Below are positions 8,543-60,136 of a stretch of 64,000 nt of DNA, piece after piece. The notes under the pieces are model-generated. The model had not been told where the DNA came from, did not search any database, and saw only the letters and a program-made list of their open reading frames with translations. Origin of the DNA: Bacteroidales bacterium (GTDB lineage Bacteria; Bacteroidota; Bacteroidia; Bacteroidales; P3); NCBI GenBank assembly GCA_017480225.1, contig JAFVBB010000006.1, forward strand, positions 62,001 to 126,000, given 5' to 3'. Each line of letters begins with the position of its first letter. The stretch's first letter is position 1. Both the position numbers and the translations under genes were made by a program.

Positions 8543-8666
8543 CAGGGCCGTCTGTTCTTCGATTGTTCTCCGATTGTTCTTCGATTGTTCTTCGATTATA
8601 AATCGAAGAACAATCGAAGAACAATCGGAGAACAATCGAAGAACAGACGGTGTTTACATTGCCCTG
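8543..8666. repeat. Palindromic 11-nt-unit repeat, copy 1
   Basis: Two perfect 50-nt arms (8548-8597 and 8601-8650) flank a 3-nt loop. Each arm is CCGTCT followed by four 11-nt units of the type GTTCTTCGATT; the second unit has CC for TC. An outer CAGGGC (8543) and GCCCTG (8661) also pair, leaving a one-sided 10-nt bulge. The repeat lies between the end of the 800-residue lipoprotein gene and the ribosomal operon promoter. The gene-free stretch 8293-8783 holds only this repeat, the promoter and the leader. Confidence 0.95.
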
Positions 8667-8783
8667 AAGCGGAGAAAGAGGGGGCGCCACCACCCCGGCA
8701 GCCAGCCCGGACGGCAAAGGCATCGACCCCGCACCGGTGTGGGTGCGGGGTCGCTGCGCAGTTGTTCTCTGATATGGGTGAGG

Positions 8784-11186
8784 CTACAGGTCGAGCACAG
8801 GCAGATAGCCAGGCGCGTAGAGCCAGTCGGCGGCGCCGCTGATGGCGGCCTTGCCGGCGTCGAGATAGTCGTAGAGCGCCTGATAGTCGCCAGTGGGGCT
8901 CTCGGCTATGGTAGTGGGCGCGGAGAGGGTGGTGCCCACGATGAAGTTCTTGCCGTCGTCGACGGTGGCACCGGTCACCGAGCCCGCGAAGGGCATGAGG
9001 CTGTTGAGGCGGGCGTAGGAGTAGCAGTTCTCCACCGTGCCGCCCACTGCGCGGCCGACCGCGACACCGGCATGGCCATTGCCGCCGGAGACGTATATGT
9101 TCTGCAGCGCGGCGAAGCTGTTGTGCACCTCGCCGCCCACCAGCAGCGCCACCAGGCCGCCCGCCGCGCTGCCAGTCTCGGTGGCTGTGAAGTTGATGAC
9201 TCTCAGCGTGGCGTTGTAGGCGCAGTTCACCACGCGCGCCGACGAGCCCACCTGCAGGGCCACGATGCCGCCCACCACGGGGCCGGCAAGCTGGCCGGTC
9301 CCCTCTATCCAGCAGCCGTCGACCACGCCCTCGTTGCGGCACACTATGCCGCCTATGTGGCTCGAGGTGCTCGAGGCCTCGCTGCAGAGGAGGTTGTTGA
9401 AGTAGCACCCCTTGACGGTGCCGCCGGCCATGTTGCGGTAGACCACCCCACCCCACTTGGTGAGGCCTGTCGACGACTGGCTGGCGCCGTAGTAGCAATC
9501 CTGCACGGTGCCGTTGTTGTCGACACACACGCCGCCCGCGCCGGCGGGACCTGCATAAGCGCCCGGCGTCACCGAGAGCACGCTGTTGGCATGGCAGCCC
9601 TCCATGGTGCCGTTGTTGGCGCCGCACACGGGGCTGAAGAAGGCGCTGTTGCCGTTGCTTGAGGCGAAGACGAGCGAGCCGCTGCCTGAGCAGCCGGAAA
9701 GAGTGCCGTTGTTGGTGAGGCACACGCCGGCATAGGTGCTCGAGGCGGCGTTGTGGCGCAGGGTGACGGTGCCCTTGGTGCGGAAGGTGCAGTTAATCAT
9801 GGTGCCGTTGTTCACGTCGCAGAAGGGCGAGTAGGAGCCTATCTGCACGGAGCCGGTGTAGGCGGTGTCGAGCACGGCAATCTTCTCCACCGTGCCGTCG
9901 GGGCCGATGCTCTCGAAGAGCGGGTGGGTGGTGGTGTTGATGACGGCGTATTCGGAGCCCACGGTGTAGCCGCGCAGGTGGCCGGTGAAGTTCTGTATGC
10001 CGCCGTCCCAGGCTGAGGTGAGCCTCAACGGGTTGCGCATGATGCGGAACTGGGTGTTGGCCGTGACCAGCTGGCCGTTGATGTATACTTTGCCGCCCGC
10101 GCGGGGGTTGTTGAAGGCATCGCGCATGTAGATAAGCTCCTTCTCGGTGTAGATCTTGAAGGGGCGCATCTCGGTGCCGTTGCCCACCAGTCCCTGCTCG
10201 GCGGCAGAGCCGGTGGTCTTCCATTCGTCCACGCCCACGGCGCGGTTGAAGGTGATGGTGTGGCGGCGCGTGTGGACGGTGAGGTTGGCCGCGAAGCTGT
10301 TGCCCTCGGCGGTGAAGAGCTCGACGCGGAGGGCATAGTCGGTCGGCGTGGTGGCGCTTTCCGAGCCGTAGAGCGAGGGCAAGATCACATAGAAGCTGCG
10401 GAGGGAGTCGCTCTTGAACTCGAGGCCCCCATCGGTGGTGAGGGTGATCTGGTTGAGCGGTGCGGCCACAGCGTCGTCGCCCTTGTTGCCCAGCCCCTCG
10501 ACGCAGGGGTCGTCGGTGTGCTGGTCCTTCACGTTGAACATGCCCCACAGCTGCTTGCCGTCGGTGGCGGTGATGTCGATGTGGTCGATGGTCTGGTCGA
10601 CGGCGGTGTTGTTGAAGAACTGCAGCCTCACCAGCGCGGCCAGCGTCTTGAAGTTGAGGTTGTAGGGAGCCGACGAGGGGTCGTCGGGGTCGTACTCGGC
10701 GCCGAACCACGCCACCATGGGCAGCTGCTGCTTGGCGAAGGTGGAGTCGTTGCGCCACTTCTGCGCCTGCGGCACGAACACATGCACCTGGTCGAACTTG
10801 TTCGAGCTGCCGCCCACGGGCTTGATGCGGTTGTACTTCGAGTAAGGGTGCAGAGCCATGAAGTACTTCGAATCCTCGGCCATGTCGGCCAGGAAGACGC
10901 CGTTGTAGTTCTCGAAGCGACCCATGCCGCCGCGTTCGAGCCAGCCGGTCGACTCGTCGCCGACGTTGGTGTTCTGGCTGCTGAGGGTGATGGCATCGCC
11001 GAGCTCCCACATGATGAACTTCTCCTGCGAGAAGTAGACCTTGGTGTCGGTCGAGGCGAAAGGCTCGATGGTGCCGTTGAAAGTGAACCGGCGGGTCTCG
11101 ACTGGCGAGGGCTTGCAGCCTTGGAGCAGGGCAAGCAGAGCCGCGAGGAGCATCAGTGCCGGGGTGTGTCGTCTTGGTGTCGTCAT
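8784..11186 (-). CDS. Fimbrillin-like lipoprotein with GLUG repeats
   Basis: 800 aa. The ATG at 11186 begins a lipoprotein signal (hydrophobic LMLLAALLALLQGC, lipobox LQGC). Residues ~25-330 resemble the fimbrillin-like fold of Bacteroidales: a strand-rich start, ITLSSQN, a DLP-like middle and a LNFKTLAALVRLQFFN segment. Residues ~400-780 are GLUG-type repeats with NNGTMEGC, NNGTVQDCYY, GGIVCRNEGVVDGCW, VGGIVALQ and AGGLVALLVGG. Third gene of the operon led by the 4379-residue protein; 40 bp separate it from the 65-residue gene. By analogy it may be an outer-membrane or cell-surface adhesin subunit. The fimbrillin assignment is by appearance only. The palindrome at 8543 follows it by about 120 bp. 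Confidence 0.75.
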   Translation of the reverse strand: MTTPRRHTPALMLLAALLALLQGCKPSPVETRRFTFNGTIEPFASTDTKVYFSQEKFIMWELGDAITLSSQNTNVGDESTGWLERGGMGRFENYNGVFLADMAEDSKYFMALHPYSKYNRIKPVGGSSNKFDQVHVFVPQAQKWRNDSTFAKQQLPMVAWFGAEYDPDDPSSAPYNLNFKTLAALVRLQFFNNTAVDQTIDHIDITATDGKQLWGMFNVKDQHTDDPCVEGLGNKGDDAVAAPLNQITLTTDGGLEFKSDSLRSFYVILPSLYGSESATTPTDYALRVELFTAEGNSFAANLTVHTRRHTITFNRAVGVDEWKTTGSAAEQGLVGNGTEMRPFKIYTEKELIYMRDAFNNPRAGGKVYINGQLVTANTQFRIMRNPLRLTSAWDGGIQNFTGHLRGYTVGSEYAVINTTTHPLFESIGPDGTVEKIAVLDTAYTGSVQIGSYSPFCDVNNGTMINCTFRTKGTVTLRHNAASSTYAGVCLTNNGTLSGCSGSGSLVFASSNGNSAFFSPVCGANNGTMEGCHANSVLSVTPGAYAGPAGAGGVCVDNNGTVQDCYYGASQSSTGLTKWGGVVYRNMAGGTVKGCYFNNLLCSEASSTSSHIGGIVCRNEGVVDGCWIEGTGQLAGPVVGGIVALQVGSSARVVNCAYNATLRVINFTATETGSAAGGLVALLVGGEVHNSFAALQNIYVSGGNGHAGVAVGRAVGGTVENCYSYARLNSLMPFAGSVTGATVDDGKNFIVGTTLSAPTTIAESPTGDYQALYDYLDAGKAAISGAADWLYAPGYLPVLDL

Positions 11187-11226
11187 TCTTTCATTCAGTT
11201 GTGGTGGGAGGAGAGGCAGGTGCTGT

Positions 11227-11424
11227 TCAGAAATCCCATTCGCCGGTAGTGAATTCGCCATCCTCGATGTATTCCACATAGTTTTCGGGCGAGCGGAGGG
11301 TGGTGCCGTCGTTGCCCTCGATGAGCACATAGTCCTTGTGCAGGGCCACACGCGAGCCTTCGTAGCCGCGCTCGGGCAGGTAGGAGTAGGCCTCAAGCCG
11401 GGGTCTCAGATATGGGCGCTTCAT
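11227..11424 (-). CDS. 65-residue coupled small protein, unknown
   Basis: The ATG overlaps the stop of the 4379-residue gene as ATGA, so translation is probably coupled, which is strong support that this is real. The protein starts MKRPYLRPRLEAYSYLPERG. This resembles the 'MKK-Y-x-P-x-x-E' opening of many short Bacteroidales proteins found beside fimbrillin and surface-protein genes. The rest is acidic, ending EYIEDGEFTTGEWDF. No signal peptide, membrane segment or cysteine pair is visible. It lies between two exported proteins, so a role in folding or export of its partners, or in regulation, is possible but unsupported. Confidence 0.7.
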   Translation of the reverse strand: MKRPYLRPRLEAYSYLPERGYEGSRVALHKDYVLIEGNDGTTLRSPENYVEYIEDGEFTTGEWDF

Positions 11425-14400
11425 TGCTTGATCAGTTTCTGGATTATTACGTTGTCGGAAGTGTGCACACGCAGGTAGTAGGCGCCGGTGGCGTAATGGC
11501 TCACGTCGATGGTGAGCGAGCCCTCGTTGCGGGTGGTGTAGTCTTGCAGGCGGCGGCCCTCGCTGTCGTAGAGCTCGACGTGGCGCAGACCCTCAATCTC
11601 GACAGTCACACGCGAGGTGGCGGGGTTGGGGTAGACGCGCAGCTCGGCCAGGTGGATCTCGGCCGGTTGCTCGATGCCCTCGGTGCGGCGCACGGTGAGC
11701 GCCAGCGTGACGACACTGTCGCAGCCGTTGATGCCGACCAGGGTGTTGCTGAGGGTGAGCGTGGCGCTGCCCTGCTCGCTGATGGCCTGCTGCAGCATGG
11801 CGTACTCGGTGGGGGTCACATAGAAGCCATAGCCATTGTACTCCTCGCCGTTGCCAATGCTGTCGGCAAAATGGCTGGAGGAGGAATGGTGTATCACGAC
11901 GCGCAGGCGCGTGGTGCTGTCGACCATTGCCACAGAATCGATGAAGTGGTGCTCGGCCACGGCATCGGCGGTGTAGACCACACCACCCCACTCCAGACTG
12001 TCGCAACCGCTGACGAGCATAGTGTCGAAGACCGGGATGAGGTCGGGCTCGCCGAACACCGGGTAGCCTCCGTTGGCGCCCAGCATGTCGCTGCGCCAGG
12101 TGCGGTGGTTGCCGCTGTGTTTGCGCACCCAGATGTTGAGCGCGCGGGTGAGGTTCTTGACACCATAGCTGGCCTGTTCGAGCTCGACACCGTTGCCCTG
12201 GCCGTCGAACTGGCTGGTGGAGGTCACCGACGAGCCAGCACGCTGCTGACCCACAGCCTGGCCCACCGAGCCACTGGCGAAGTAGTTGTGCGAAGCCACG
12301 ACGCCGTCGTCGAGCACCGCGCCGACGGCACCCTCGGTGGCGCTGCCGCGCAGGTTGCCGTAGACGTAATTATTCTCAATCACGGTGTTGCTGGCATAGC
12401 CCACCAAGCCGCCCACACGCTGCTGGTTGCCGTCGGCGGAGTAGCGCACATAATTGTTGAGCACATAGGAGCGCGGCGACTTGCCGGTGGAGGTGAGGGG
12501 CTTGCCTGCGGGTGTGGGGGCGGGCACGAAGTAGGCCCCAAGGTTGGTGTCGCTGGTAACCGTGACAGAGCGAGGATTGTCTGTGTTTTGGTCAGACCAT
12601 TGCGCGAAGACATACTCGCTCTCGTCAGCCGATTGCACAGTGAAGACCACTACCGTGCCCTCGGCCACCTGCGCACCGTTGGACAGCTGCATTCCATCAG
12701 CCGTGTTGAGGTACACAAAGCCGGGGGCATAGGTCTCGCTGCCGCCATAGATGGTGGCGCTGACGGAGAAGTACTTCTGCTCGTCGTCGGACTTGCTCTT
12801 GAAGTAGGCGATGATGGTCTTGTCGGCGTCGACGACAACCATGCGGGTGCTGTCGGCCATGTTCTGCGAGTCGCTCCAATGGTCGAAAGCATAGCCTGCG
12901 AAGGCAGCCGCCGAGATTTGCACCACGGTGTCGGCCGGGAATGTGCCACCGCCAGCCACCTGACCCCAGTCGGCAGGACTTGCCTCAAGGGTAATGGTGT
13001 AGGTGGGGTTCTCAACGCGGGTGAAGTAGGCCGTGAGCATAGTGTCACCCGTCACGACAACGTAGTGCGGGTTGTCGTATGAGCCGTCGCTCCAATGGTC
13101 GAAGACCCAGGTGTTGTCGTAGGGGGTGGCGCTGACAATGGCCGTCTGCCCATAGCTGAAGCCCAGGTCGGAGCCATTGGTCACCACGGTCTCGCCACGC
13201 TGCTGGTCGGCGACGACGGTGACGTTGAAGCGCTGGTCCTCAACATCGGCGCTGCCGCGGAAGTTGGCCTGGTAGAGCTTGTCGGCTGTCACCACCACCT
13301 GCAGCACACGCGAGGTGTCGGCACCGACCCAGCCCTCGAAGTAGCAGCCCTCAAACGGTGTGGCCACGAGGGTGATGGTGGTACCGGCCGCATAGTAGCC
13401 GCCGCCGCTGACGCTGCCGAAGCGGGCATCATTGGCACGTACCTCAATGGAGTAGTACTCGGGCTCCTCGACCTGCGTGGTGTCGCTGCCGCCCTCAAGG
13501 CGTCCGGCCAGGCCACCCTCGTAGACCGCGCTCGACATGCGCTCGCGGTTGGCATTCCAGGCCACATTGTCCATCATGCTGGTGCTCTGCCCGTCGCCGA
13601 CAAGGCCGCCACTGTAGACGGCGTCGCCGACAAACTTGGTGCGGACAAACGAGTTGCGCACCTGGTCGGAGCTCGACTTGCCCAAGAGGCCGCCGCTGAC
13701 GTAGGAAGTGGAGAGGATGGAGGTGGAGTGGCGCTCCTCGGACATGTCGTTGAGGTCGCCGTCGACACCACAGTTGTCAATGCGCGAGTGGGTGGAGTTG
13801 GCTGCAAGCGCGCCCACATACTGGCCGCCGCGCACCATGGCACTCTCAAGCTTGACGGAACGGATGCGTGCAGTGTCGATATTGCCGAAGAAGCCCGCAT
13901 AGTAGGCCGAAGGCTCGTTGATGATAACATTCTTGATGACAACCGGCTGCACGGCAGGCACGGTGACACTGTCGCCATTCTCCACACCGATGAACCAGCC
14001 ACGGAAGGGGTGCTGCGCCGTGCCGACTGGAGTCCACAGGTGGGCGTGCATGTCGTAGGGAGCGTTGCCCGCCTTGCGGTGCAGGTAGACCTTCTGGAAG
14101 TAGTAGGTATGGGCAGCCACATTGTTGAGGCCGTTCACCTCGCTGATGAACCAGGCCAAGCCCTCCTCGTTGTAGATGTGCACGTCGCCCTCATAGGTCA
14201 CCACATAGCCGCTCTTCGGGCTCTTGCGGTTCACGTAGACGAACTCGTCGACCATCTCGATGCGACCCTTCTCCGGGGTACTGATGGTATCGACCCAATA
14301 CTTGCCGCTGCCGCCAGGGCCGTAGTAAGCCACAACGGTGTCACTGTGAGCTGGCACAATGTAGTCGGCAGGGTTGTTGTAGAAGGGGTCGAAGTCCCAC

Positions 14401-24745: not shown

Positions 24746-24869
24746 CAGGGCCGCCTGTTTTCCGATTGATGTCCGATTGTTCTTCGATTGTTCTTCGATG
24801 CTAAATCGAAGAACAATCGAAGAACAATCGGAGAACAATCGAAGAACAGACGGTGTTGACATTGCCCTG
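24746..24869. repeat. Palindromic 11-nt-unit repeat, copy 2
   Basis: The right arm (to 24852) is identical to copies 1 and 3. The left arm carries several substitutions (for example CCGCCTGTTTTCCGATTGAT at its start) and the loop is GCT. The outer CAGGGC (24746) and GCCCTG (24864) match copy 1. It lies between the 3606-residue gene and the promoter of the 4379-residue gene. Confidence 0.93.
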
Positions 24870-25030
24870 GTGGCTTTTCAGGCTGGGTATCAACATATTG
24901 CAAGAACAATCCAATGTAATTAATTACAAATCAACAGATAGCGGCAGGTCCAGCCAAGCCCGGACGAGCCTTGCGATTATTGCGCAGCAGTAGCGGCGAA
25001 GCCCTGTGGCACAGCATATTGGACAATAGA

Positions 25031-35974: not shown

Positions 35975-38900
35975 TTACTCTGTTATCTCTACAAATGTGT
36001 TGCCGCCCACGCTGGCCTTGTTGCCGCCGCCGTAGACGTTGCCCCTCACCTCGCCGTTGTCGCTGAGCACCACACGGCTGTCTATCTCCACGCGGCTTTC
36101 ATTGCCAGCGCCGAAGACGCTGCCCTTCACCAGCGTGTTGCCGTCGATGGCGATGGAGGTGGATCCGCTCACCGCGCCCAGGCCGAGCAGCGACAGGGTG
36201 GTGTAGCAGTACCATTTGCCGTCGGCCTCGAACACCGGGTTGTTCTGATTGACACCGGCAGGGGCATCCTCGTGTATCCAAGTGAAGTACACGTCTTTGC
36301 CGTCGACGTCGGTGAGGTAGTCCAGCACGCCGTTGTGGCAGACACCCGACCTGTCGCGGGTTGGATAGGTGACACTCCGGCGGTCGTGCACGCGGAACGA
36401 GGGTATGGCGGCCGAGAAGCCCCCGCCGTAGGCCGAGCCCTCTACGACACTGTTGCTCACCACCGACACCACGTCGCCGCTCACATTGCCCAGGTTGCCA
36501 CCGCCATAGTAGTCGCCCAGCACCAGGCAGCTGTCAAGCGTGTTGCTCACGCTGCCGGTCACCGTGGTGCCGAAGTCGGCAAACACATTGAACGTGCGCG
36601 CCACAGCGTCAGTACCTAATCCATTGGACTGGTTGAACACCTCGAACTCAAACTCGCAATGGTAACCTCTGCCCGACTCGTAGTTCACTCCCTCTCCAAA
36701 ATTGTTGACCGGTTTGAATTCACCAAACTTGTAGGTATCGCCGTTCCAGTCACTTGGACCCGGCATGTCAGACGGTGTCTGGTCAGTTATGTTCACACGC
36801 AGCAGGTTGGTGCCGCCGTTGCCGCCGCCATAGTATTCGCCGAAGGTGCTTCCCACCGCCGTGGTGGTCACCTTTTTGCCTGCGGCCATGCTGCCCACCT
36901 TGGGGCCTCCGCAGTATTTGCCCACCAGGCTGTGGTCAATGCTCACCGTGATGTCGCCGAGCACCGGCAGGGTGGAGTTGATGCCGCCGCCGTAAAACTC
37001 GTCGATGATGGCATGGTCTATCTGGAACGTGACGCTGCCGCGCACGCTCTCCATGCCCGCCCCTGTCAAGGTGCCGAAGTGCCCTCCGTTGATGAAGCAG
37101 TGGGGGTTGTCATCGTTAGCACGGCTTGCGTTGATGTCGTCGCGCCAAATGCCGGAAAGGTAGAACTCCGGATAGTCACCGCCCAGCACACTGATGGCAC
37201 AGTGGCGCACAGCGCATCTCTTGTTATTGCCCGAATGGGTGCCCGGAGTGAACCGTTTCATCCACACATTGCCGCCAAGCACAATGTTGCGGGTGTTGGA
37301 GAGTTTGCCATAGTTGCTTCCTGAAGCCACAATCTGCTCGAAATGGCCTCCATTCAATATCAACGCCTGCTGGTGGTTGACGCTCACATTGTCGTTGGTC
37401 GACATGTACTCGAACTGCGTGGTGTGCATGAACGAGGTCTCCGTGATCTCGAAATGGCCTTGCGGCACAAAGATGCCTATGGCGTAGGCGTATGAGTCGT
37501 GGCGGATGGCCGTGCCGAGTTCCACCACAGGCAGGAAGTCGAACCTCACAGGCAGAATGCCCGGGCGTTGCACATTGCCGCGCCACTGCAGCTCCCACAC
37601 GAAGTCGGGCTCATTGTCGAGGTCGAGGTCGGCACTCATGAAGGTCACGTGGCGCTCTTTGTATGCCAGGCTTATGTTGCTGCCGGCTCTCACCTGGAAG
37701 TTGCCGAGCAGCACGATGGCGCAGTCGTAGACGGTCAGTTTGCTGTTGGAGGGCACCGCCTGCACAACCGTGGCCAGGTCGTCGTACACGTGCATACCGT
37801 TGAATGTATCGTCCATGACGCCAGCCGGCGTGAAGCCATAGCCATAATAGCTGGTGGAGGTTGGAGGTTTGGTGACACTCACGCGGTCCACATAGTGACC
37901 ATTGCCGTGCAGGTAGAGGGCCTTGCCCCAGTAGGCCTCTATCGTGATGGCCTGCACCCCTTCGGGCACATAGTAGTAGCCTCCCTGGGCAAAGACGCGC
38001 CCGCAGGTGTCGTAGAGGTCCTTGCCGGTGCAGTGGCGGTCGGCATAGTTGTAGCCGTTCTCCCAGTTGGCCACGAATGAGTGCGTGCCGTGCTTGTCGA
38101 CAGCGGTTATCTTCCACCCCGTGACCACGCTGTCGGTGTAGTTCATGCCGTAGCGCTCATGGTGGTCGGCTGTGGCCGGGTTGCCGAACACCTCGTTGTA
38201 GTAGGGCAGCTGCACCTTGCAGTAGCCATAGTCGTGGTGGGTGGTGTCCATGTCGGTGGCCGGCAGGTTCAGCGTGACGGCCCCGGCGCCACGGTTGTGC
38301 GTGCCGGGCTTCACGGTCACCTCAATCCAGCCAAGCCGCTTGCCGCGGTAGCCTGCCGCCTGGCCGCGGTCGACCCACTGCGCCTGCCCGGCGTCCCACA
38401 CGCGGGCGGTGTCGGCGTTGATGACCGAGGGGTAGCGCCCCCAGCGCTTCAGCACCGGGTAGGGGGCTATGCTCTCGTCGAGCACCCACTTCCACACCAG
38501 CGCGGTGTCGGCGGCGGTCTGGTCGCCCACCTCGTGGCCCGTGATCCAGAAGGCGCAGAGGCGGCGGTTGCTGTTGAGAATGCTGCGATGGTATTCGAAG
38601 CGCGTCAGGTACTGCTCCTCGGCAGGCCACTGGAGGCGGTAGTTGTCCACGCTGGTGTAGCTGTCGTCGAAGAGGGCCTCGTCGCGGAAGTAGCAGTAGT
38701 TGTTCATCGACTTCTCACCGCCATTGGCGATGGTGTTTCCGCCGAACACTGGCGAGTAATTGGCCTGTGGCAGCGAGCCGTAGTCAAGCTCGCCGTAGAA
38801 CATGCAGTTCATCACCATGGTTGACTGGTTGTCCTGCGTAGAGGCGACGCTGTTGTAGCCCACGAGGCCGGCCAGCCAGGTGCCTCCGCCCACGGTGGCG

Positions 38901-41038
38901 AAGCTGTAGCAGTTCACCACATGGGCCGAGCCCTCAAGCCTGCCCACCAGGCCGCCCACGCTGCCCGTGCCGTCGCCCCTGACGGTGCTCTCGCCGCCGA
39001 GCACACCCACGTTGTACACCCGCGCCGTCGAACCTGCCACGCAGGCCACCGCGCCCACGTCGCCGCTGCCGCTCACAGCCACGCCGTCGAGCACCAGGTT
39101 GCGCACCGTACCGGTGAGTGTGCCTATCAGCGGCGTGGACAAGCCGCTGATGGTGTGGCCGTCGCCGTCGAGGCAACCGGTGAAGGTGGCCAGGGTCGTG
39201 TGGCCTAAGGCGTCGACGTCGCCCGAGAGCTTGTAGTAGCCGCCGGGGTCGGTAATCTCAGAAAGCGAGCTGATGGGCGTGAACTCCGACTCGTCGGGCA
39301 GCGCCTGGCTGGGGTAGATGTAGAAGACGACACTTTTCGCCGTCGACACTATCGAACTTTTCCTCGTGGCGTCCGAGTATGTCTTGGCCGTCACCGAGAA
39401 CGTGCCGCTCACAGTGGTGGAAGGCATGGTGTTGACGCGCACTATGTAGTGAGCCCTGCCGTCGTTCTTCACCTCCTCAAGCGTGGCGTAAGCGTTGAGG
39501 CCGGTCAGGCTGGCCGAGTACTTCACCGTGTCGGTATCCCAAGAGCCGCGGCACTCAAGGTCGCGGTTGTTCGCTGGCGACTTCTCTATGTTGCGCGAGT
39601 ATGCCGTCTGCCACCGCAGGTCGTAGCCGCCAATCTCCCGGGCGTAGGTCTGACCCCTCACAACACTGTCTGTCCGCAGGCGGTGCACCCATGTGTAGGG
39701 GTAGATGCGCCACCTGGCGTTGTCGCCGCCCTTCGCAAGCACCAGGTGCCCCACGCCATCGCTCTTCAGCGCAAAGCGCATTGAAGTGGGATAATCTCCA
39801 TTGCCACTGGCATGGAAGGCATAGCGGTAGTCGTAGGGCACGATGAATGTGCACCCGGAATGGATGTTGTCGGGCGCGTTGAAGAGGCGGAACTTGTAGC
39901 GATTGTCGTCGCCGGGCAGCGCGTCGGCGCCCAGCCGGGCGGTGCCCAGGTCGTCGAAGCGCCTGTCGGCGGTGTCAAAGTAGAGGTAGCGCCCCGTGGC
40001 CACACTGCGGAACGAGTAGTAGTCGCGTCCGTCGCGCTCCACCACCCAGCTGATGTTGTCGTTGCTCTCCGTCAGCTGGTCGTTGCCCACCATTGTCACA
40101 GCGTCGCCCTCGGCCATGCCGTCGTCGTCAGCGGGGAAGCACAGCGATGTGTTGTGCGTGTTGAAGAGCAAGTATTTGGTGGCATCGGCAGGCGTGAGGT
40201 GGCGCGCCTCGATGGCCAACGTCAGCACCTTCTCAACGGCCGGGTAGAGCTCGCGGGCTATGGGGTCAAGCGGCTCCACACTGCAATTCATTGTGATGCT
40301 GTTTTGCTTGCTGGCGGTGAGGTTGTATACCGTGCCGTCGGGGGTGATGTCCCACGACGTGCCCTTGCCCGCATGGGTGGTCGAGACAAACGTCAGGCGG
40401 CAGTAGAGGCGTTGGTCGGAGTTCTTGACGATGGCATTTTCCTTGCCGGTGTCGTCCTTTGCGAGAGTGATGTTGACCTTGCGGGTGAGGTAGGTGCGCA
40501 GATACGTGATCGGCTGCGGGCTGCGCACAGTGAACGTGAGGGCGTTGTAGGTCGTGGGGTGGGATGTCTCCTCCAGCGTGGCCTCACACGCCGTGTAGAC
40601 CTGGGACGGATTGGAAGCGAGCACCACTCCGCCACTGTATCCGAGCACCATGTCGGTGCCGTGCAGTTGGAAACGCTGCTTGCCGTCGACCTCCACAACG
40701 TCCCACTTTGAGAGCGGGCAGTCTGAAAGATAGAGCGTCGACCCAGAGGCGTTGAGGTAATAGAAGCAGTTCTGGAGGTATCCATCCGACGAATAGACCC
40801 ACAGCGAGTTGCCGTTGTCGTCGTAAGGGTTGCCGTAGAGGAACTTACCATCATTTGCCACCGCACCCTGTGCCTGCTTCAGCCAGCCTGTGCCATTGAT
40901 CTGCATGGCATAGTAGGTGTAGGTTGCCTGCGCCCTGACGGCCGCGGGCAGCAGCACCAGCAGCAAGGCAGCCAGCACGAGGACCGCCGCGCGGCGGCGC
41001 GCCTTGCGGGCGGGATTGTATGTCGCAGATGTCGTCAT
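35975..41038 (-). CDS. Secreted protein with GLUG and solenoid repeats
   Basis: 1687 aa. The ATG at 41038 starts a long signal peptide (basic ARKARRRAA, then VLVLAALLLVLLPAAVRAQ). Residues ~30-450 look like two ricin-type or lectin-like segments (TYTYYAMQINGTGWLKQAQG; DTADRRFDDLGTARLG). Residues ~600-740 are GLUG-type (GTVRNLVLDGVAVSG, VGGLVGRLEGSAHVVNCYSF, LAGLVGYN). The last ~350 residues carry solenoid repeats (EYYGGGNGG, GDYYGGGNLGNVSG, GSVFGAGNESRV). They end in a solenoid turn, VYGGGNKASVGGNTFVEITE, with no cap or sorting domain. The downstream 3606-residue protein begins straight after its signal peptide with the same kind of turn. The two may therefore be halves of one ancestral protein, or partners. 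First gene of the operon. Confidence 0.85.
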   Translation of the reverse strand: MTTSATYNPARKARRRAAVLVLAALLLVLLPAAVRAQATYTYYAMQINGTGWLKQAQGAVANDGKFLYGNPYDDNGNSLWVYSSDGYLQNCFYYLNASGSTLYLSDCPLSKWDVVEVDGKQRFQLHGTDMVLGYSGGVVLASNPSQVYTACEATLEETSHPTTYNALTFTVRSPQPITYLRTYLTRKVNITLAKDDTGKENAIVKNSDQRLYCRLTFVSTTHAGKGTSWDITPDGTVYNLTASKQNSITMNCSVEPLDPIARELYPAVEKVLTLAIEARHLTPADATKYLLFNTHNTSLCFPADDDGMAEGDAVTMVGNDQLTESNDNISWVVERDGRDYYSFRSVATGRYLYFDTADRRFDDLGTARLGADALPGDDNRYKFRLFNAPDNIHSGCTFIVPYDYRYAFHASGNGDYPTSMRFALKSDGVGHLVLAKGGDNARWRIYPYTWVHRLRTDSVVRGQTYAREIGGYDLRWQTAYSRNIEKSPANNRDLECRGSWDTDTVKYSASLTGLNAYATLEEVKNDGRAHYIVRVNTMPSTTVSGTFSVTAKTYSDATRKSSIVSTAKSVVFYIYPSQALPDESEFTPISSLSEITDPGGYYKLSGDVDALGHTTLATFTGCLDGDGHTISGLSTPLIGTLTGTVRNLVLDGVAVSGSGDVGAVACVAGSTARVYNVGVLGGESTVRGDGTGSVGGLVGRLEGSAHVVNCYSFATVGGGTWLAGLVGYNSVASTQDNQSTMVMNCMFYGELDYGSLPQANYSPVFGGNTIANGGEKSMNNYCYFRDEALFDDSYTSVDNYRLQWPAEEQYLTRFEYHRSILNSNRRLCAFWITGHEVGDQTAADTALVWKWVLDESIAPYPVLKRWGRYPSVINADTARVWDAGQAQWVDRGQAAGYRGKRLGWIEVTVKPGTHNRGAGAVTLNLPATDMDTTHHDYGYCKVQLPYYNEVFGNPATADHHERYGMNYTDSVVTGWKITAVDKHGTHSFVANWENGYNYADRHCTGKDLYDTCGRVFAQGGYYYVPEGVQAITIEAYWGKALYLHGNGHYVDRVSVTKPPTSTSYYGYGFTPAGVMDDTFNGMHVYDDLATVVQAVPSNSKLTVYDCAIVLLGNFQVRAGSNISLAYKERHVTFMSADLDLDNEPDFVWELQWRGNVQRPGILPVRFDFLPVVELGTAIRHDSYAYAIGIFVPQGHFEITETSFMHTTQFEYMSTNDNVSVNHQQALILNGGHFEQIVASGSNYGKLSNTRNIVLGGNVWMKRFTPGTHSGNNKRCAVRHCAISVLGGDYPEFYLSGIWRDDINASRANDDNPHCFINGGHFGTLTGAGMESVRGSVTFQIDHAIIDEFYGGGINSTLPVLGDITVSIDHSLVGKYCGGPKVGSMAAGKKVTTTAVGSTFGEYYGGGNGGTNLLRVNITDQTPSDMPGPSDWNGDTYKFGEFKPVNNFGEGVNYESGRGYHCEFEFEVFNQSNGLGTDAVARTFNVFADFGTTVTGSVSNTLDSCLVLGDYYGGGNLGNVSGDVVSVVSNSVVEGSAYGGGFSAAIPSFRVHDRRSVTYPTRDRSGVCHNGVLDYLTDVDGKDVYFTWIHEDAPAGVNQNNPVFEADGKWYCYTTLSLLGLGAVSGSTSIAIDGNTLVKGSVFGAGNESRVEIDSRVVLSDNGEVRGNVYGGGNKASVGGNTFVEITE

Positions 41039-41280: not shown

Positions 41281-41403
41281 CAAGGCCGTCTGTTCTTCGA
41301 TTATTCTCCGATTGTTCTTCGATTGTTCTCCGATATTAAATCGAAGAACAATCGAAGAACAATCGGAGAACAATCGAAGAACAGACGGTGTTGACACGGT
41401 GCC
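41281..41403. repeat. Palindromic 11-nt-unit repeat, copy 3
   Basis: Left arm CCGTCTGTTCTTCGATTATT and onward differs from copy 1 at a few bases. The right arm (41340-41390) is identical to copies 1 and 2, through CAGACGGTGTTGACA. The outer ends differ (CAAGGC and GGTGCC). It lies about 90 bp upstream of the promoter of the 1687/3606-residue operon. In 41404-41539, between it and the tnaA promoter, I see nothing further. Confidence 0.93.
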
Positions 41404-48131: not shown

Positions 48132-48139
48132 TAACTTTG
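48132..48139 (+). promoter_or_regulatory. -7 box before rubredoxin
   Basis: TAACTTTG, a perfect TAnnTTTG, about 46 bp before the rubredoxin start. No clear TTTG lies at the right distance. Confidence 0.5.
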
Positions 48140-48184
48140 CATTGATTACAATTCACCCAATAACAACCTAAACAACTGAAAACG

Positions 48185-48346
48185 ATGAAGAAGTATGTAT
48201 GCAAGGTGTGCGGTTACGTTTATGACCCCACCGTCGGCGACCCTGACAGCGGCATTGCACCGGGCACAGCATTTGAGGCCATTCCGGCCGACTGGGTGTG
48301 CCCTCTGTGTGGCGTTGGCAAAGACGACTTCGAGCCCGCCGAGTAA
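48185..48346 (+). CDS. Rubredoxin
   Basis: A 53-aa iron protein with both cysteine knuckles: [12 protein letters not shown] (Cys6, Cys9) and [13 protein letters not shown] (Cys39, Cys42). The G-Y-x-Y-D-P and PADWVCPxCG patterns and the length are standard for rubredoxin, a one-electron carrier in anaerobes, often used in oxygen or peroxide detoxification. Monocistronic, with its own -7 element and a terminator directly after. Confidence 0.97.
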
Positions 48347-48358
48347 GGAAAGAGAAGA

Positions 48359-48389
48359 AGACGCTGCAAGGTCAGCGTCTTTTCTTTTT
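48359..48389 (+). terminator. Terminator after rubredoxin
   Basis: AGACGCTG (48359-48366) pairs with CAGCGTCT (48373-48380) and runs into TTTTCTTTTT. It overlaps the last codons of the convergent tadA gene. Confidence 0.85.
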
Positions 48390-48812: not shown

Positions 48813-48818
48813 ATTCAA

Positions 48819-51708: not shown

Positions 51709-51859
51709 TCTCATTTCCGGTAAACATAACTGCCGCACGCCGTTTTTTATTGTCCTGCACACGCCCGAAAAACTCACTTTTACACATTCAGCAAAGTGCG
51801 CCGGCCGCAACATGGCGATCAGCGCACTTTTCTCACGTGAGGAAAAACCCAGCGAGGTG

Positions 51860-54433: not shown

Positions 54434-54505
54434 TACGTAAGCTTTTAGTCTATATATCTATTCTTCAACTGCATTACATCGACTGCACGTCGACTTTTGG
54501 CACTG

Positions 54506-54539
54506 CTAAATTAGAAATAAAAACCATTCCGGCGGCAAA
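54506..54539 (-). promoter_or_regulatory. Weak candidate promoter for nrdJ
   Basis: On the minus strand: TTTG (54539-54536), 22 nt, TAATTTAG (54513-54506), one mismatch in the -7 box. In the rest of this gap (54540-54796) I see no gene. Confidence 0.4.
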
Positions 54540-54796
54540 TAGTTTTCAACACCGAAAACCCGCCACCGCACAAAAAGCTGTCCGCTTGCCGCTTTTGACG
54601 GTTGAAAACTCGGCCTGGCCATGTCTACGGCTTCGAAAAAGGGTCACCGGTCTCAGCTATGGCTGTCTTTTCGTCGCCCACAGGCAACGGTGGCAAGTTC
54701 AGTATTGTTTCCTGCAACCCACTAACAACAAGTACAGTCCGCCGCCAATTAAGATTTTTTAGGAATAAAGAAAGATGGTGGGCGGCAGAAAAGAAG

Positions 54797-54804
54797 TAAT
54801 TTTG
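54797..54804 (+). promoter_or_regulatory. -7 box for tRNA-Ala
   Basis: TAATTTTG, 17 bp before the tRNA 5' end. No TTTG at 19-21 nt is visible. Confidence 0.5.
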
Positions 54805-54821
54805 CACCTCGAAAAAAGAGA

Positions 54822-54894
54822 GGGGTATTAGCTCATTTGGTAGAGCGGTTGGTTCGCAATCAACAGGTAACGGGTTCGATTCCCGTATACTCCA
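54822..54894 (+). tRNA. tRNA-Ala, anticodon CGC
   Basis: A full cloverleaf can be drawn: acceptor GGGGTAT with ATACTCC, D-arm GCTC/GAGC, anticodon stem GTTGG/TCAAC with loop TTCGCAA (CGC at 54855-54857), T-arm ACGGG/CCCGT with TTCGATT, and discriminator A. The acceptor pair at position 3 is G-U, the alanine identity element, which agrees with the anticodon (codon GCG). CCA is not encoded. Confidence 0.93.
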
Positions 54895-54914
54895 CTTTCA
54901 TTCTAATTTTGATT

Positions 54915-54937
54915 GGCGGCAGTCTGCCGCCTTTTTT
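54915..54937 (+). terminator. Terminator after tRNA-Ala
   Basis: GGCGGCA (54915-54921) pairs with TGCCGCC (54925-54931), followed by TTTTTT. It ends the tRNA transcript just before the convergent marC gene. Confidence 0.85.
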
Positions 54938-54949
54938 ATTCGGCAGCAA

Positions 54950-55537
54950 TCACACTCCCTGGCTTCCGAATATTGCCATAATATTGCCGCCGAAAAGTTT
55001 AACGGCCATGGCCAAAAGTATAACGCCGAAGAACTTGCGAAGCACGTAGATTACACCGCCCCCAAGGCGGCTTGCCACCTTGTCAAGGTAGCGCAGCACG
55101 AAGTAGTCAAGCACTATGTTGAGCAGCAGGCCTATCATTATGTTGACCGTGGAATATTCGGCACGGAGCGATATAAAGGCCGTTATTGCGCCAGGACCCG
55201 CGATGAGAGGAAAGGCTATGGGCACAATGCTCGCGCCCGACGCGGGGCCGTCATTCTTGATGATGTCACGTCCCAGTATCATCTCCAGCGCCAGAATGAA
55301 CAGCACCAGTGAGCCCGCCACGGCAAACGACGGCGCGTCGATGCTGAAAAGACGCAGCAGTGCGTCGCCCACGAAGTAGAAGGCCACGAAGATGAGCAGC
55401 GCCGACCCCGCAGCCTGCATGGCCTTGATGTCCTTGCCCTGCTCGCGCATGGATATGAAAAGGGGAATGGAGCCGGTGATGTCGATGATGGCGAACATGA
55501 CCAGAAAAGTGCTGAAGATTTCGACCAGGCTAATCAT
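54950..55537 (-). CDS. MarC family inner membrane protein
   Basis: 195 aa with about six membrane helices. Conserved MarC/YchE/YhgN features are FAIIDITGSIPLFISM near the N-terminus and PIAFPLIAGPGAITA in the middle. The family is widespread, but its transported substrate, if any, is not established; the old link to multiple antibiotic resistance has not held. The start overlaps the end of rsgA by 8 bp, so the two form one operon. Confidence 0.9.
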   Translation of the reverse strand: MISLVEIFSTFLVMFAIIDITGSIPLFISMREQGKDIKAMQAAGSALLIFVAFYFVGDALLRLFSIDAPSFAVAGSLVLFILALEMILGRDIIKNDGPASGASIVPIAFPLIAGPGAITAFISLRAEYSTVNIMIGLLLNIVLDYFVLRYLDKVASRLGGGVIYVLRKFFGVILLAMAVKLFGGNIMAIFGSQGV

Positions 55538-56459
55538 AGTTGTTTGTATTAGTGTCCTCGATGATGTTCAAGTAGTTGTGGTAGCGTTCCATGCTTATTC
55601 GGCCTTCGTCCACAGCCTCCTTCACGGCGCACTGCGGCTCATGGCGATGGGTGCAGTTGGCGAAACGGCAGCCGTGCAGCACAGCTCGCATTTCCGGGAA
55701 GAAGTGCGACAGTTCCTGAGCCGTGAAGTCGACCATGCCGAACTCCTTTATGCCCGGCGTGTCGACCAGTCGCGTGCCTCCCTCGATGGGGAATATCTCG
55801 GCAAAGGTGGTGGTGTGGCGGCCTTTGAGGCTCCATTCGGAGAGCGCTCCCACACGCAGGTGCAGCCCAGGGCTTAGGGCGTTGAGCAGTGCGCTCTTCC
55901 CCACACCGCTGTGGCCACAGAAAAGAACGGTCCTGCCCGCCAGCGCGCGGCGCAGGTCGTCTATGCCGGTGCCTGTCAGCGCCGACACACGCATGGTGTT
56001 GTAGCCAGCTCCGTTGTAAATCCCCTCCATCTCGGCCTGCGCGGACATAAGGTCGTCGTCGGCCAAAAGGTCGCACTTGTTGAACACCACACAGGCCGGT
56101 ATGTGGTAGGCCTCGGCGGTGACCAGCAGACGGTCGATGAAACCAGTCGAAGTGCGCGGCAGGCCGAGGGTGGCCACGACGCAGAGAAGGTCGATGTTGG
56201 CGGCTATCACATGTGTTTGCTTTGAGAGCTTGGTGGCGCGGCGGACTATGCAGTTGCGGCGGTCGCAGACGTCATGGATGAGGCCTGTGCCGTCGGCCTG
56301 CGGCTCCAGCCTCACCCGGTCGCCCACCGCCACCGGGTTGGTCTGCTTCGAACCGCGCAGGCGGTAATTGCCACGCAGGCGGCAGTCCAGTTGACCGCCG
56401 TCGTCGAGCAGCGTCCTGTACCAGCTGCCCGTAGTCCTTATCACCAGCCCTTCCTGCAT
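55530..56459 (-). CDS. rsgA: Ribosome small subunit-dependent GTPase A
   Basis: 309 aa. A circularly permuted GTPase that helps late assembly of the 30S subunit. The order is OB-fold (residues ~1-70), G4 NKCD (127-130), G1 GHSGVGKS (182-189), G3 DTPG, then a C-terminal zinc motif HGCRFANCTHRHEPQC. This order is diagnostic. The first in-frame start is a TTG at 56465; the ATG at 56459 is preferred. First gene of the rsgA-marC operon. Confidence 0.96.
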   Translation of the reverse strand: MQEGLVIRTTGSWYRTLLDDGGQLDCRLRGNYRLRGSKQTNPVAVGDRVRLEPQADGTGLIHDVCDRRNCIVRRATKLSKQTHVIAANIDLLCVVATLGLPRTSTGFIDRLLVTAEAYHIPACVVFNKCDLLADDDLMSAQAEMEGIYNGAGYNTMRVSALTGTGIDDLRRALAGRTVLFCGHSGVGKSALLNALSPGLHLRVGALSEWSLKGRHTTTFAEIFPIEGGTRLVDTPGIKEFGMVDFTAQELSHFFPEMRAVLHGCRFANCTHRHEPQCAVKEAVDEGRISMERYHNYLNIIEDTNTNNYD

Positions 56460-56598
56460 CAGCAAACCATTATAGCGTTGTCTTTGTGAGGCTTTGGCCG
56501 AGCAGCCAAGCGACCCGGCCAGCGTGCAAAATTACACATTTTGCGCCACACGGCCAAATATTCTTCCCGGCGGTGCCATCGCGGAGGCCAAATTTTAT

Positions 56599-56629
56599 TT
56601 TGCCATGTCGCGGATTTGGTGTATTTTTG
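56599..56629 (+). promoter_or_regulatory. Promoter of the beta-galactosidase gene
   Basis: TTTG (56599-56602), 19 nt, TATTTTTG (56622-56629). The spacer CCATGTCGCGGATTTGGTG closely matches that of the promoter at 43278. Confidence 0.8.
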
Positions 56630-56679
56630 CAAGCCGAAATGACCACACAGGCAATGTTTTCCACCATGATGGTATGGCA

Positions 56680-59600
56680 ATGAAGAGACCTCTCCTCACC
56701 CTCGTTTTCGCGCTGCTTGCCGCTGCCGGCGCCACCGCCTCGGCGCAGCCCCACTGGAACAACCTCAAAGTGTACCGCACAGGCGCACTGCTGCCCCACG
56801 ACCGCGTGGTGCCCGAGGGCGACTGGCGGCGCTCGCTCGACGGGGTGTGGCGCTTCCGCTACTACCCCAACCCGGCGCAGGCCACCCTCCACCCCGACCG
56901 ATGGGACAGCATCCGCGTGCCGGGCAACATCGAGCTGCAGGGCTTCGGCGTGCCGGTCTACGTGAACATGAAGAACGAGTTTCCAAGCAACCCGCCATTC
57001 GTGCCGGCCGACGACAACCCCACAGGTGTCTACTCGCGCGACTTCACCCTGCCCCCCCACTGGCAGGGGCGGCGCACCATCGTCAAGTTCGGCGCTGTCA
57101 AGGCGGCCATGTACCTCTACGTCAACAACCGCGAGGTGGGCTACAGCGAGGACTCGAAGACACCACACGAGTGGGACATCACGCGTTTCCTCCATTCAGG
57201 GACAAACACCCTGGCGGTGAAGGTGCTGAGATGGTGCGACGGCAGCTACCTCGAGTGCCAGGACATGTGGCGCATGAGCGGCATCACCCGCAGCGTAGAG
57301 CTCTACAGCGTGCCCGCCACCTACATCAGCGACCTCAAGATCGTGGCCGACCTCGACACCGCCAGCTTCACCCACGGCACGCTCGACCTGCTGGTCGACT
57401 TGAGCGAGCGCGTGCAGGGCGGCAGCCTCGAGGCCGAGGTCTGCGGCGTCACCGCAAAGCGCAGGCTTGAACCGCGCGAGTGGTTCGCCTCGCTGGCCAT
57501 AGAGGCCGGCGCCGTGCAGTCCTGGAGCGACAGCACCCCGGTGCTCTACCCACTAACCGTCAGGTTCTTCGACGAGCATGGCCGACTGATTGAGACCATC
57601 GTCAAGCAGGTGGGCTTCCGCCATATAGACATCCGGGGCGGACAACTGCGCCTCAACGGCAGGCCCATGGAGATCAGGGGGGTGAACCGCCACGAGCACT
57701 CCATGCACGGCGGCCACTACGTGACCCCAGCCGAGATGCGGCACGACATAGCCTTGATGAAGGAGCTGGGAATAAACGCCGTGCGCACATCCCACTACCC
57801 CAACGACGAGCTGTGGTACGACCTCTGCGACTCGGCGGGCATCTACCTCTGGGACGAGGCCAACCTCGAAAGCCACGCCCAAGGCTACGGCGACCAGTCG
57901 CTCGCCAAGAACCCCGACTGGAAGGAGCCCATGCTCGACCGCGTGTACAACATGTACCGCCGCGACCGCAACCACCCCTCGGTCATTGCCTGGAGCCTTG
58001 GCAACGAGTGCGGCAACGGCATCTGCATGGAGGAGGCATACCGACACCTGAAGAACTACGACCCCACGCGTCCGGTCACCTACGAGCGAGCCGTGCTCGA
58101 CTGGAACACCGACATCGTGGAGGTGATGTACTCCTCGGCCAAAGAGATTGCCGATTATGCGCGCGACCCGCGCAACACGCGCCCCTTCATCATAGCCGAA
58201 TACTGCCACGCCATGGGCAACAGCATGGGCGGCCTGCAGGACTACTGGGACACCATCGACCGCTACCCGCAACTGCAGGGAGGCTTCATCTGGGACTGGG
58301 TCGACCAAGCCTTCGCCGCCACCGGCGGCCATCTGGCATCTGAGGCCACCGTGCGCCCGCCAGCCTCCTACTGGGCTGCCGGGGGCGACCTCGGCGAGCT
58401 GCCAGGGCTAAAGGACGACGACGCCTTCTGCGCCAACGGCCTGCTGGCCGCCGACCGCACCCCTCACCCGCACGCCGCCGAGGTCGAGGCCGTCTACACC
58501 CGCCGCCGGAGCAACATCACCCTGCCCCCGCCGCCCCCGGCCGACACGTTGCCGCACCGCCGCGCCTACCTGCGAGTGACCCACAACAAGCGCGGCATCA
58601 CCGTGCAGAACGCCGACTTCCAGATCGCCGTCGACCCCGGCGACGGCAGCATTGCCTCGTGGCGCGTCGGCGGACGCGAGCTGCTGGCCTCGCCGCTGCG
58701 CTGCAACTTCTGGCGCCCGCCAACCGAGAACGACCTGGTCGACCCCCTGGGGGCGCGCGCATGGCAGGGACTCGACCAGGCCGAGCGGCACGTGGTGAGC
58801 CTCAACGCCACCCTCAACCACTCGCGCGACACCGCCGAGGTCACAGCCCTGATACACCTCGTGTGCCCCGACGGCAACCGCCTGCGCGTGAAGCAGGTGC
58901 TGCAGGTGGCCGCCAACGGGCGCGCGCAGCTGGGTTGCCTCGTGTCGCCCGACGGCCAGTTCCGCACCCTGCCCAAGGTGGGCCTGCAGCTCGGACTCGA
59001 CACCGCCTACACCGCCTGCACCTTCTACGGCAACATACACGAGACCTACCCCGACCGTCGCGCGGCGCAACGCGTGGGGCTGTGGCACAAGAGCATGGCC
59101 GGGCTTGCCGAGCCGCAGTACGTGGTGCCGCAAGAGCAGGGCAACCGCGAGGCACGCTGGGTGCGCTTCGGCGCGCCGGGACGCCCGCCGCTCACCTTCA
59201 TCAGCCCGCAGGGGCAGGAGGCGCTGTGCTTCAGCGTGCGCCGCTGGAACGACACCATCCTCACCGCCGCCCGACGCTGGCGCGACCTGCCGCCCGACGG
59301 CCGCTACACCGTCAGCATCGACCACCGCAACGCCCCCCTCGGCACCGCCACCTGCGGCCCGGGCGCCGACCCGCGCCTGGCCATAAGCGGCGACAGCGTC
59401 TACCGCTTCCGCTTCATCATCGACCCCGTCCACGACGGCTCAGGCACGCCTCCCGAAGGCTTCGGGCCGCACCCCGACATCGAGCGGCTTCCACCACCGG
59501 CCGACGACGCCGCGCCCCGCCTTGTGGTGAGCGCCGTGGAAGGCTCGCTCCAGCCCGCCGGGCAGTACAGCGGCGGCTACCCGACACTGCTCACCGACAT

Positions 59601-60012
59601 GCGCCGCGCCGTGCCGGGCGACTACCAGCACGGCTGGGCAGGCTTCAGCGGAGCCGACACCCTCGTGCTCACACTGACGCTCGACCGCCCATCCTCCATC
59701 GGCGAGGTGCGAGCCTCGGCCTGCCACAGCCCCACCGACTGGGTGGTGCGCCCGCTCAGCGTCGAGGTGCAGTGGAGCGCCGACAGCCTGCGCTGGTCGG
59801 CATGGCAAAGCCTCGAGCTGCGCAATCCACCCACCGACCCCTTCACCGACAGCCGCCGCCTGCTCTACTCGCTCACGGCATCCAAGAACCGCAACATGTG
59901 CTTCGTGCGCCTGCGCTACATCTGCCGCCCCACCCTGCCGCCATGGCATCCCTACGCCGGCGAGCCAGCCTGGCTCATGATTGACGAGGTGGAGCTGCGC
60001 TCGCGCCAGTGA
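56680..60012 (+). CDS. Exported GH2 beta-galactosidase
   Basis: 1110 aa from the ATG at 56680; an ATG 6 bp upstream is possible. Signal peptide (LLTLVFALLAAAGATASAQ). LacZ-type GH2 layout: jelly-roll sugar-binding domain, Ig-like domain, TIM barrel with HRHEHS-like VNRHEHSMHGG, acid/base Glu443 in WSLGNECGNG and nucleophile Glu507 in IIAEYCHAMGNSMGG, then small beta domains. The last ~150 residues look like an F5/8 type C carbohydrate-binding domain (VRPLSVEVQWSADSLRWSAW). It is exported to the periplasm or outer membrane and acts on terminal beta-galactosides. It is not beside SusC/SusD genes, so it is not in an obvious polysaccharide utilisation locus. Confidence 0.94.
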   Translation: MKRPLLTLVFALLAAAGATASAQPHWNNLKVYRTGALLPHDRVVPEGDWRRSLDGVWRFRYYPNPAQATLHPDRWDSIRVPGNIELQGFGVPVYVNMKNEFPSNPPFVPADDNPTGVYSRDFTLPPHWQGRRTIVKFGAVKAAMYLYVNNREVGYSEDSKTPHEWDITRFLHSGTNTLAVKVLRWCDGSYLECQDMWRMSGITRSVELYSVPATYISDLKIVADLDTASFTHGTLDLLVDLSERVQGGSLEAEVCGVTAKRRLEPREWFASLAIEAGAVQSWSDSTPVLYPLTVRFFDEHGRLIETIVKQVGFRHIDIRGGQLRLNGRPMEIRGVNRHEHSMHGGHYVTPAEMRHDIALMKELGINAVRTSHYPNDELWYDLCDSAGIYLWDEANLESHAQGYGDQSLAKNPDWKEPMLDRVYNMYRRDRNHPSVIAWSLGNECGNGICMEEAYRHLKNYDPTRPVTYERAVLDWNTDIVEVMYSSAKEIADYARDPRNTRPFIIAEYCHAMGNSMGGLQDYWDTIDRYPQLQGGFIWDWVDQAFAATGGHLASEATVRPPASYWAAGGDLGELPGLKDDDAFCANGLLAADRTPHPHAAEVEAVYTRRRSNITLPPPPPADTLPHRRAYLRVTHNKRGITVQNADFQIAVDPGDGSIASWRVGGRELLASPLRCNFWRPPTENDLVDPLGARAWQGLDQAERHVVSLNATLNHSRDTAEVTALIHLVCPDGNRLRVKQVLQVAANGRAQLGCLVSPDGQFRTLPKVGLQLGLDTAYTACTFYGNIHETYPDRRAAQRVGLWHKSMAGLAEPQYVVPQEQGNREARWVRFGAPGRPPLTFISPQGQEALCFSVRRWNDTILTAARRWRDLPPDGRYTVSIDHRNAPLGTATCGPGADPRLAISGDSVYRFRFIIDPVHDGSGTPPEGFGPHPDIERLPPPADDAAPRLVVSAVEGSLQPAGQYSGGYPTLLTDMRRAVPGDYQHGWAGFSGADTLVLTLTLDRPSSIGEVRASACHSPTDWVVRPLSVEVQWSADSLRWSAWQSLELRNPPTDPFTDSRRLLYSLTASKNRNMCFVRLRYICRPTLPPWHPYAGEPAWLMIDEVELRSRQ

Positions 60013-60028
60013 CAGGAAGACACCAACA

Positions 60029-60136
60029 CCGTCTGTTCTTCGATTGTTCTCCGATTGTTCTTCGATTGTTTTTCGAATATAAATCGAAGAACAATCGAAG
60101 AACAATCGAAGAACAGACGGCCTTGACATTGCCTTG
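60029..60136. repeat. Palindromic 11-nt-unit repeat, copy 4
   Basis: The left arm (60029-60078) has four 11-nt units; the right arm (60082-60120) has three, so one unit, the one with CGG, is lost. The tail is CAGACGGCCTTGACATTGCC, matching copies 1 and 2 after the first bases. It begins 16 bp after the beta-galactosidase stop. In 60137-60281 I see no gene. Confidence 0.92.

Follow-up and report, generated by a model that had tools for sequence, protein, structure and literature searches.

The stretch of DNA analysed here, 64 kb in length and referred to below as the window, belongs to a genome of 2,053,254 bases in 22 contigs (97.63% complete), whose host, judged by its nearest named records, appears to be a rumen-type member of Bacteroidales close to 'bacterium P3' and Candidatus Colimorpha. 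All four palindromic copies that the original prediction had reported in the window were found (Table 1), and TRF gives a period of 11 nt in 8/8 of their arms, in accordance with the 11-nt units described there. Copy 1, which lies upstream of rplM (7837-8292, minus), has arms that are perfect complements, as claimed, and the right arm is indeed the same over about 50 nt in copies 1-3. The drift of the left arm of copy 2 and the short right arm of copy 4 were confirmed as well: in copy 2 the right arm (24804-24853), which faces the conserved dyad termed P1, is canonical and the distal, left one has drifted, while in copy 4 the right, P1-side arm has three units (3.1 by TRF) and the other arm four. 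Copy 3 is placed between divergent neighbours, 35975-40978 (minus) and tnaA (plus). P1 was recognized on the right side of copies 2 and 4; copies 1 and 3 are under the threshold.

Table 1. Palindromic copies of the window and the P1 dyads beside them (window coordinates).
Feature	Position	Strand	Arms	Arm complementarity	Remark
Copy 1, palindrome, 4+4 eleven-nt units	8548..8650	.	8548-8597/8601-8650 (50 nt each)	100%	P1 below threshold
Copy 2, palindrome	24751..24853	-	24751-24799/24805-24853	90%	
Copy 2, P1 dyad and outer 11-nt units	24854..24939	-			R1 match C16:86854-86939, E 7.0e-15
Copy 3, palindrome	41281..41393	.	41281-41334/41340-41393	93%	P1 below threshold
Copy 4, palindrome	60029..60121	-	called 60024-60074/60075-60125	88%	
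Copy 4, P1 dyad and outer 11-nt units	60122..60205	-			R1 match C16:122122-122205, E 6.6e-12

Folding of the RNA, proposed as a check of the original prediction, gave stems far above chance: plus-strand z-scores of copies 1-4 are -21.0, -12.8, -17.1 and -14.9, no shuffled sequence folded as well as the real one (0/200 for each copy) and the energies reach down to -94 kcal/mol. The four window copies lack a T-run after their arms, and the sole Rfam family at gathering score in the window is a tRNA, the palindromes matching no RNA family.

On the minus strand the window also holds three giant reading frames (11421-40978; about 4360, 3607 and 1668 codons), which are rich in repeated GCCGCCGCC-type segments and probably encode repetitive proteins. 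Where the end of the arm is preceded by G (e.g., window 8547-8554), its sequence, GCCGTCTG, is identical to the eight-letter core of the DNA uptake sequence of Neisseria; this likeness is probably a coincidence.

Copy number, anatomy and spacing

The pattern of two units, searched in the genome with up to two mismatches, gave 413+393 = 806 matches, and the reversed control pattern gave none. From 100 of 167 and 100 of 219 matches listed, plus four points, 137 distinct places were obtained and the sequence was read at all of them (133 fetched stretches and the four of the window). The arm is present in 137/137, and 134/137 also have its mirror image, two or more units long. The search with R1, a sequence-only model of P1 and the outer units, pointed to four more places, of which two were read, both with a palindrome, and the family therefore counts at least 139 copies read and at least 141 placed, two of them by the model only. 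On contigs C1-C3, where every exact two-unit match was listed, no additional copy appeared. A large number of intergenic copies, sharing a tail that is conserved in part, is the outcome by which the original prediction had hoped to recognize a repeat family.

The palindrome spans about 104 bp, ends in CCG/CGG and usually has four units per arm, read by column counts over 104 copies as CCG TCTGTTCTTCG ATTGTTCTCCG ATTGTTCTTCG ATTGTTCTTCG ATT. The arms are inverted around a loop, as had been described; its length is 4 nt in the frame of the family (134/137 copies) and not 3 nt. Units follow one another head to tail with no spacers between them (TRF), and the order of their T/C variants is preserved in about 88%. 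Among 104 copies there are 82 distinct 93-nt cores, the commonest seen 7 times, at different loci. Phasing of 11 nt persists more weakly outside the arm, which is preceded by outer units like TATCAACACCG or TGTCAACACCG and followed by CGG at intervals of about 11 nt, and conservation declines outward from the palindrome centre. Pairs in the flanks beyond the arms show no covariation (137 copies). General 11-nt periodicity of the organism's intergenic DNA was not seen in flanks outside the elements, in segments that still show period 3, so that some coding DNA is mixed in.

All of the 104 copies examined lie outside called genes. The genes were called with a simple caller of our own, trained on window genes, and for the 101 copies with both neighbours called the arrangement is divergent in 38, tandem in 52 and convergent in 11, while the 41 further gaps of 100 bp or more in these stretches are divergent in 11, tandem in 28 and convergent in 2. 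Copies avoid one another. Among the matches listed, the 141 placed copies leave 122 gaps (mean 14.2 kb, median 11.2 kb, minimum 3.39 kb), of which 2 are shorter than 4.4 kb vs about 34.6 expected at random, the lowest simulated value being 17; on contigs C1-C7, again among the matches listed but with more of them covered than elsewhere, these figures are 0/35 and 8.9 expected. The spacing was retested on two sets unaffected by the extent of the listing: 79 R1-defined sites have 0/63 gaps below 4.4 kb vs 12.5 expected (lowest of 20,000 simulations 2), and 19 copies on C1-C3 have 0/16 vs 3.4 expected (P 0.016). The coefficient of variation of the 122 gaps, 0.72, is by our arithmetic about the value of a plain 4.4-kb exclusion, so that true periodicity is absent.

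The P1 dyad and the asymmetry of the arms

P1 occupies about 55 nt on one side of the palindrome, further out than the outer units, and is a dyad of two inverted CTG-N5-CAG-type half-sites, the invariant columns of which are, in our reading of the alignment, mostly mirror-symmetric; RNAalifold gives no structure for it. The R1 model, built from 62 copies, has at least 80 matches in the genome at E <1e-5 (among the best 150 of 632 candidates scored). Of these, 76 adjoin a listed palindrome, 2 adjoin a further one that was read and 2 fall at unread places, and two of the 80 are the two sides of one copy. Scored alone, by a matrix derived from 62 copies that are themselves in the scored set, P1 passes the 99.5% random level in 85/137 copies and a stricter level in 58/137, so that 52/137 remain under the former.

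Orientation by arm identity, used for the column counts, the cores, the duplication test and the P1 identities, is biased, and was rechecked by P1 alone: of the copies oriented in this way, 71/85 have no deviation in the 33 loop-side nt of the P1-side arm and 16/85 have none in those of the distal arm (Wilcoxon p 2e-12). The motif at -40 together with four distal units served to pick a set of 52 copies, in which the mean identity between pairs is 0.99 in the P1-side arm, 0.91 in the distal arm, 0.65 in the inner P1 half (raised by this selection of copies), 0.40 in the outer half and 0.31 in the P1 centre, with far flanks at the chance level of 0.26-0.27. Positions -46 (1.00) and -66 (0.96), which lie outside the choosing motif, are nearly or fully invariant in the same set, and identity is close to chance (0.24-0.35) from -61 to -53 and from -44 to -42. 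The strand composition of P1 tracks that of the local flanks (r=0.61), by which the variable positions look resident and neutral. Invariant positions beside random ones fit long purifying selection at each site; P1 would then be old at each site, with its free positions randomized, and the arms young. The same 93-nt cores at separate loci suggest that arms are copied, and near-identical 50-nt arms with the order of variants kept look more like recent copying than like independent selection for binding.

Arrays in related species

The pattern of the own unit has matches in 13/99 genomes, own included, some of them single, and several genomes of the genus carry related units with different letters. 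Period-11 arrays were counted in stretches picked irrespective of arrays, a palindrome counting as two: 20 genomes of the genus gave 11 in 282 kb, and close relatives, sampled at 23 named loci in the neighbourhood of tsf, gave 13 in 375 kb, against a single one in 431 kb from other Bacteroidales and none in 666 kb from bacteria further removed, with periods 7-9 also raised. Other units form palindromic arrays as well, e.g., CGTTCCTATAT (L227), GTTGTCCAGTT (L244) and TTACGGTAGTA (L183), and at the loci examined the arrays of sister species G001 and G004 are of the single-arm kind. Arrays of periods 7, 8 or 9 were noticed in G014, G049, G002 and at L244; close relatives are rich in short minisatellites generally.

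R1 at E ≤0.001 matches 16/120 genus genomes, own included, and on 51 other stretches from relatives it gives two weak matches only. Of its 38 sister loci (L387-L424), 30 from 14 genomes were measured: L413, L416, L417, L418, L423 and L424 are outside the count, L399 and L407 were omitted as coding-looking, and L393, included, is possibly a coding repeat. Of the loci measured, 28/30 have a flanking array whose lag-11 identity exceeds 0.6, 11 is the best lag among 6-15 in 28/30, and mean lag-11 identity is 0.71 over the 30 loci vs 0.36 in controls; R1 includes outer units, and the array aided matching in many of these loci. It lies outside the R1-matched stretch in G056, G016, G048, G157 and at two G129 loci. 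To judge from these sequences, the layout of P1 and an 11-nt period is kept in the sister species and the sequence of the unit differs, which supports the original suggestion that a unit close to one helical turn matters. Units of the TATCAACACCG kind, found in G035, G002, G149 and others, are the outer unit of the own copies, and this resemblance gives ground for thinking that units are replaced in place, from the centre. A strong/weak base rule, NNTSWWSWYCG, devised after own and sister units had been viewed, was rejected as general, since at P ≤0.05 it holds for 2/11 P1-linked and 3/22 TRF units.

The possibility that sites are common to the species was rejected too, as they are mostly not shared: orthologues of the genes adjacent to own elements stand by 13/67 array-bearing gaps vs 30/312 other gaps, and 4 of the 13 are the rplM site, which is over-represented because the set was chosen around tsf. 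In the gap upstream of rplM itself (L158-L176), 11-nt arrays were seen by eye in 6/19 sister loci (G108, G022, G118, G049, G132, G012); they are unrelated in sequence and near the place of window copy 1.

Several observations concern P1 half-sites elsewhere. At L388, L403 and L411 (G035), L390 (G002) and L398 (G055) an extra hairpin is found between or beside two half-sites, with a stem that varies in sequence and a nearly constant loop (CCTCTGG or similar). The half-site motif TGATTWTCAGTNNGTTAYAA, with 1 mismatch, was matched in 89/295 Bacteroidales genomes (about 11 for the reversed control) and has no match at 1 mismatch in the own genome; G093 has 43 matches, several as direct pairs 157-158 nt apart. 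Among viral contigs, 106 stretches contain an exact match to the half-site pattern, 80 of them listed (L455-L534), a count taken without a chance control.

Known systems and possible readings

The nearest known layout is that of BrickBuilt, a MITE of Porphyromonas gingivalis with a 23-nt unit, 19 copies, IS5-like ends and putative target duplications in 3/4 testable copies (PMC4596501). Both families are intergenic, belong to Bacteroidales and have many dispersed copies of tandem short units beside a conserved leader; BrickBuilt, however, is not a palindrome of units, and the accessible part of its description gives no spacing rule or turnover of units between species (PMC4596501). A BrickBuilt-type MITE was rejected by its unit, 23 nt and not 11 nt, and terminal inverted repeats of that type at both ends were not found: most P1 copies have a conserved box where it is expected on the chosen side, on the opposite side only 8/104 reach 9 of 13 letters, and the far 3' side is at chance identity. 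REPs, of 20-40 bp and GTAG-tagged, also form high-copy intergenic palindromes, some families being species-specific, and REP/REPIN work with RAYT transposases (PMC3733652). The palindromes described here differ in being about 104 bp long, composed of 11-nt units and often accompanied by P1, and a REP/REPIN-RAYT system was rejected on the tag (CCG/CGG ends here), the size and the Y1 transposase (PMC3733652). CRISPR was discarded on the head-to-tail units with no unique spacers. Titles and abstract beginnings, a partial coverage of the literature, yielded no description of 11-nt-unit palindromes in this group. The family belongs to none of the described repeat families tested, which agrees with the original remark that no named family has this layout.

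The original prediction had also offered a non-autonomous mobile hairpin. In its present form, an element made of P1 and the palindrome would be moved by an unrecognised transposase or recombinase, and target immunity, a known behaviour of mobile elements, would keep its copies apart. Well over 100 dispersed near-identical arms, identical cores at separate loci, intergenic placement with an exclusion zone, sites mostly unshared with sister species and the transposon-end-like inversion of the two half-sites speak for such an element. We regard it as the chief competitor of the reading preferred below, but nevertheless as rather unlikely, and its mobility as not established: the flank check that had been advised was run for target duplications of 3-9 nt and no length stood out clearly vs flank-shuffled pairs over many boundaries in 137 copies, the boundaries being uncertain and old copies possibly having lost their duplications. 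The Y1 transposase of RAYT type (PF01797), present in 73/119 genus genomes, has no match in the own genome, nor in G056. Moreover, the conserved flank is on one side only, and P1 positions randomized beside uniform arms make the whole unit unlike a recent copy. One exact two-to-three-unit pattern had no match in viral contigs, and the copy-2 region had no plasmid match and phage matches of 37 nt only, at E 0.7.

A functionless by-product that homogenises itself is somewhat less probable still, and we consider it unlikely. Here palindromes would be tolerated without SbcD, spread and equalised by recombination, and close pairs would be lost because recombination between them deletes genes. SbcCD, the nuclease of which SbcD is a part, reportedly acts on palindromes in E. 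coli (e.g., PMC3315005, PMC4245961); the SbcD model TIGR00619 has no match in the own genome vs matches in 13/14 control genomes, Bacteroides included (8 over the cut-off), and this absence may let long palindromes be tolerated. The wealth of short tandem arrays in close relatives and the outward fall in conservation agree with it as well, but the invariant positions of P1, its linkage to arrays across species and the constant 11-nt period with changing sequence are left unexplained. SbcCD break-driven conversion as the copying engine was dropped, as SbcD was not found. Least probable, and in our opinion very much so, is a role in RNA, with the hairpin as terminator, attenuator or stabiliser of mRNA. 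The folding energies and the intergenic position near gene ends and starts favour it, but an intrinsic terminator was rejected on the missing T-runs in the window copies and on the preponderance of divergent and tandem over convergent neighbours; also, distal-arm columns vary while P1-side columns are constant, flank pairs do not covary, and two relatives have single-arm arrays.

The reading that we prefer, tentatively and at somewhat less than even confidence, is that of intergenic nucleoprotein sites which stay in situ and are homogenised by copying between sites. The P1 dyad would be bound by a putative cellular DNA-binding protein, and the 11-bp units, one per helical turn and mirrored about the 4-nt centre, are predicted to hold several copies of the protein on the same face of the helix. 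A comparable seat for a protein array, in which short repeats in direct orientation recur about once per helical turn, is known from the parC/ParR plasmid centromere, e.g., the 11-bp iterons of plasmid R1; there, however, each plasmid has a single site, next to its par genes, and here there are about 140 chromosomal sites. Rarely close to one another, these may serve as nodes in organising the chromosome or insulate transcription units from each other. The sequence of the unit would be renewed species by species, a new arm being copied into one site after another through ectopic gene conversion or some process like it; introduced at the palindrome centre and using P1-side homology, it would leave the P1-side arm uniform and the distal arm varied, with the outermost units as remnants of an older unit. 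Binding, organising role, and the process and direction of copying are all inferred. The near-identical arms, which look recently copied, the copies with P1 below the random level and the sites mostly unshared between species count against this nucleoprotein reading. Exclusion spacing also fits target immunity or recombinational loss of close pairs, and by itself does not separate the three readings.

The original prediction is thus partly supported, and P1, the exclusion spacing and the turnover of units between species are additions to it. A wider form of the nucleoprotein reading, in which chromosome-organising sites are genus-wide, kilobases apart, each with a conserved dyad anchoring a phased array whose unit is renewed per species, is possible, if doubtful. 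The specificity of the protein and about 140 sites would have to change together, and copying from site to site would allow that. If the mobile reading is true instead, the family would consist of elements whose target immunity spans several kb and for which no transposase is recognised. The lack of SbcD is a simple possible reason for the tolerance of many long palindromes. If the sites are in situ, period and anchor would be kept while the sequence turns over across all of them, a clean case of concerted evolution among dispersed DNA sites. One may ask, in view of the exclusion spacing, if there are sequence-defined, self-spaced nodes on bacterial chromosomes?
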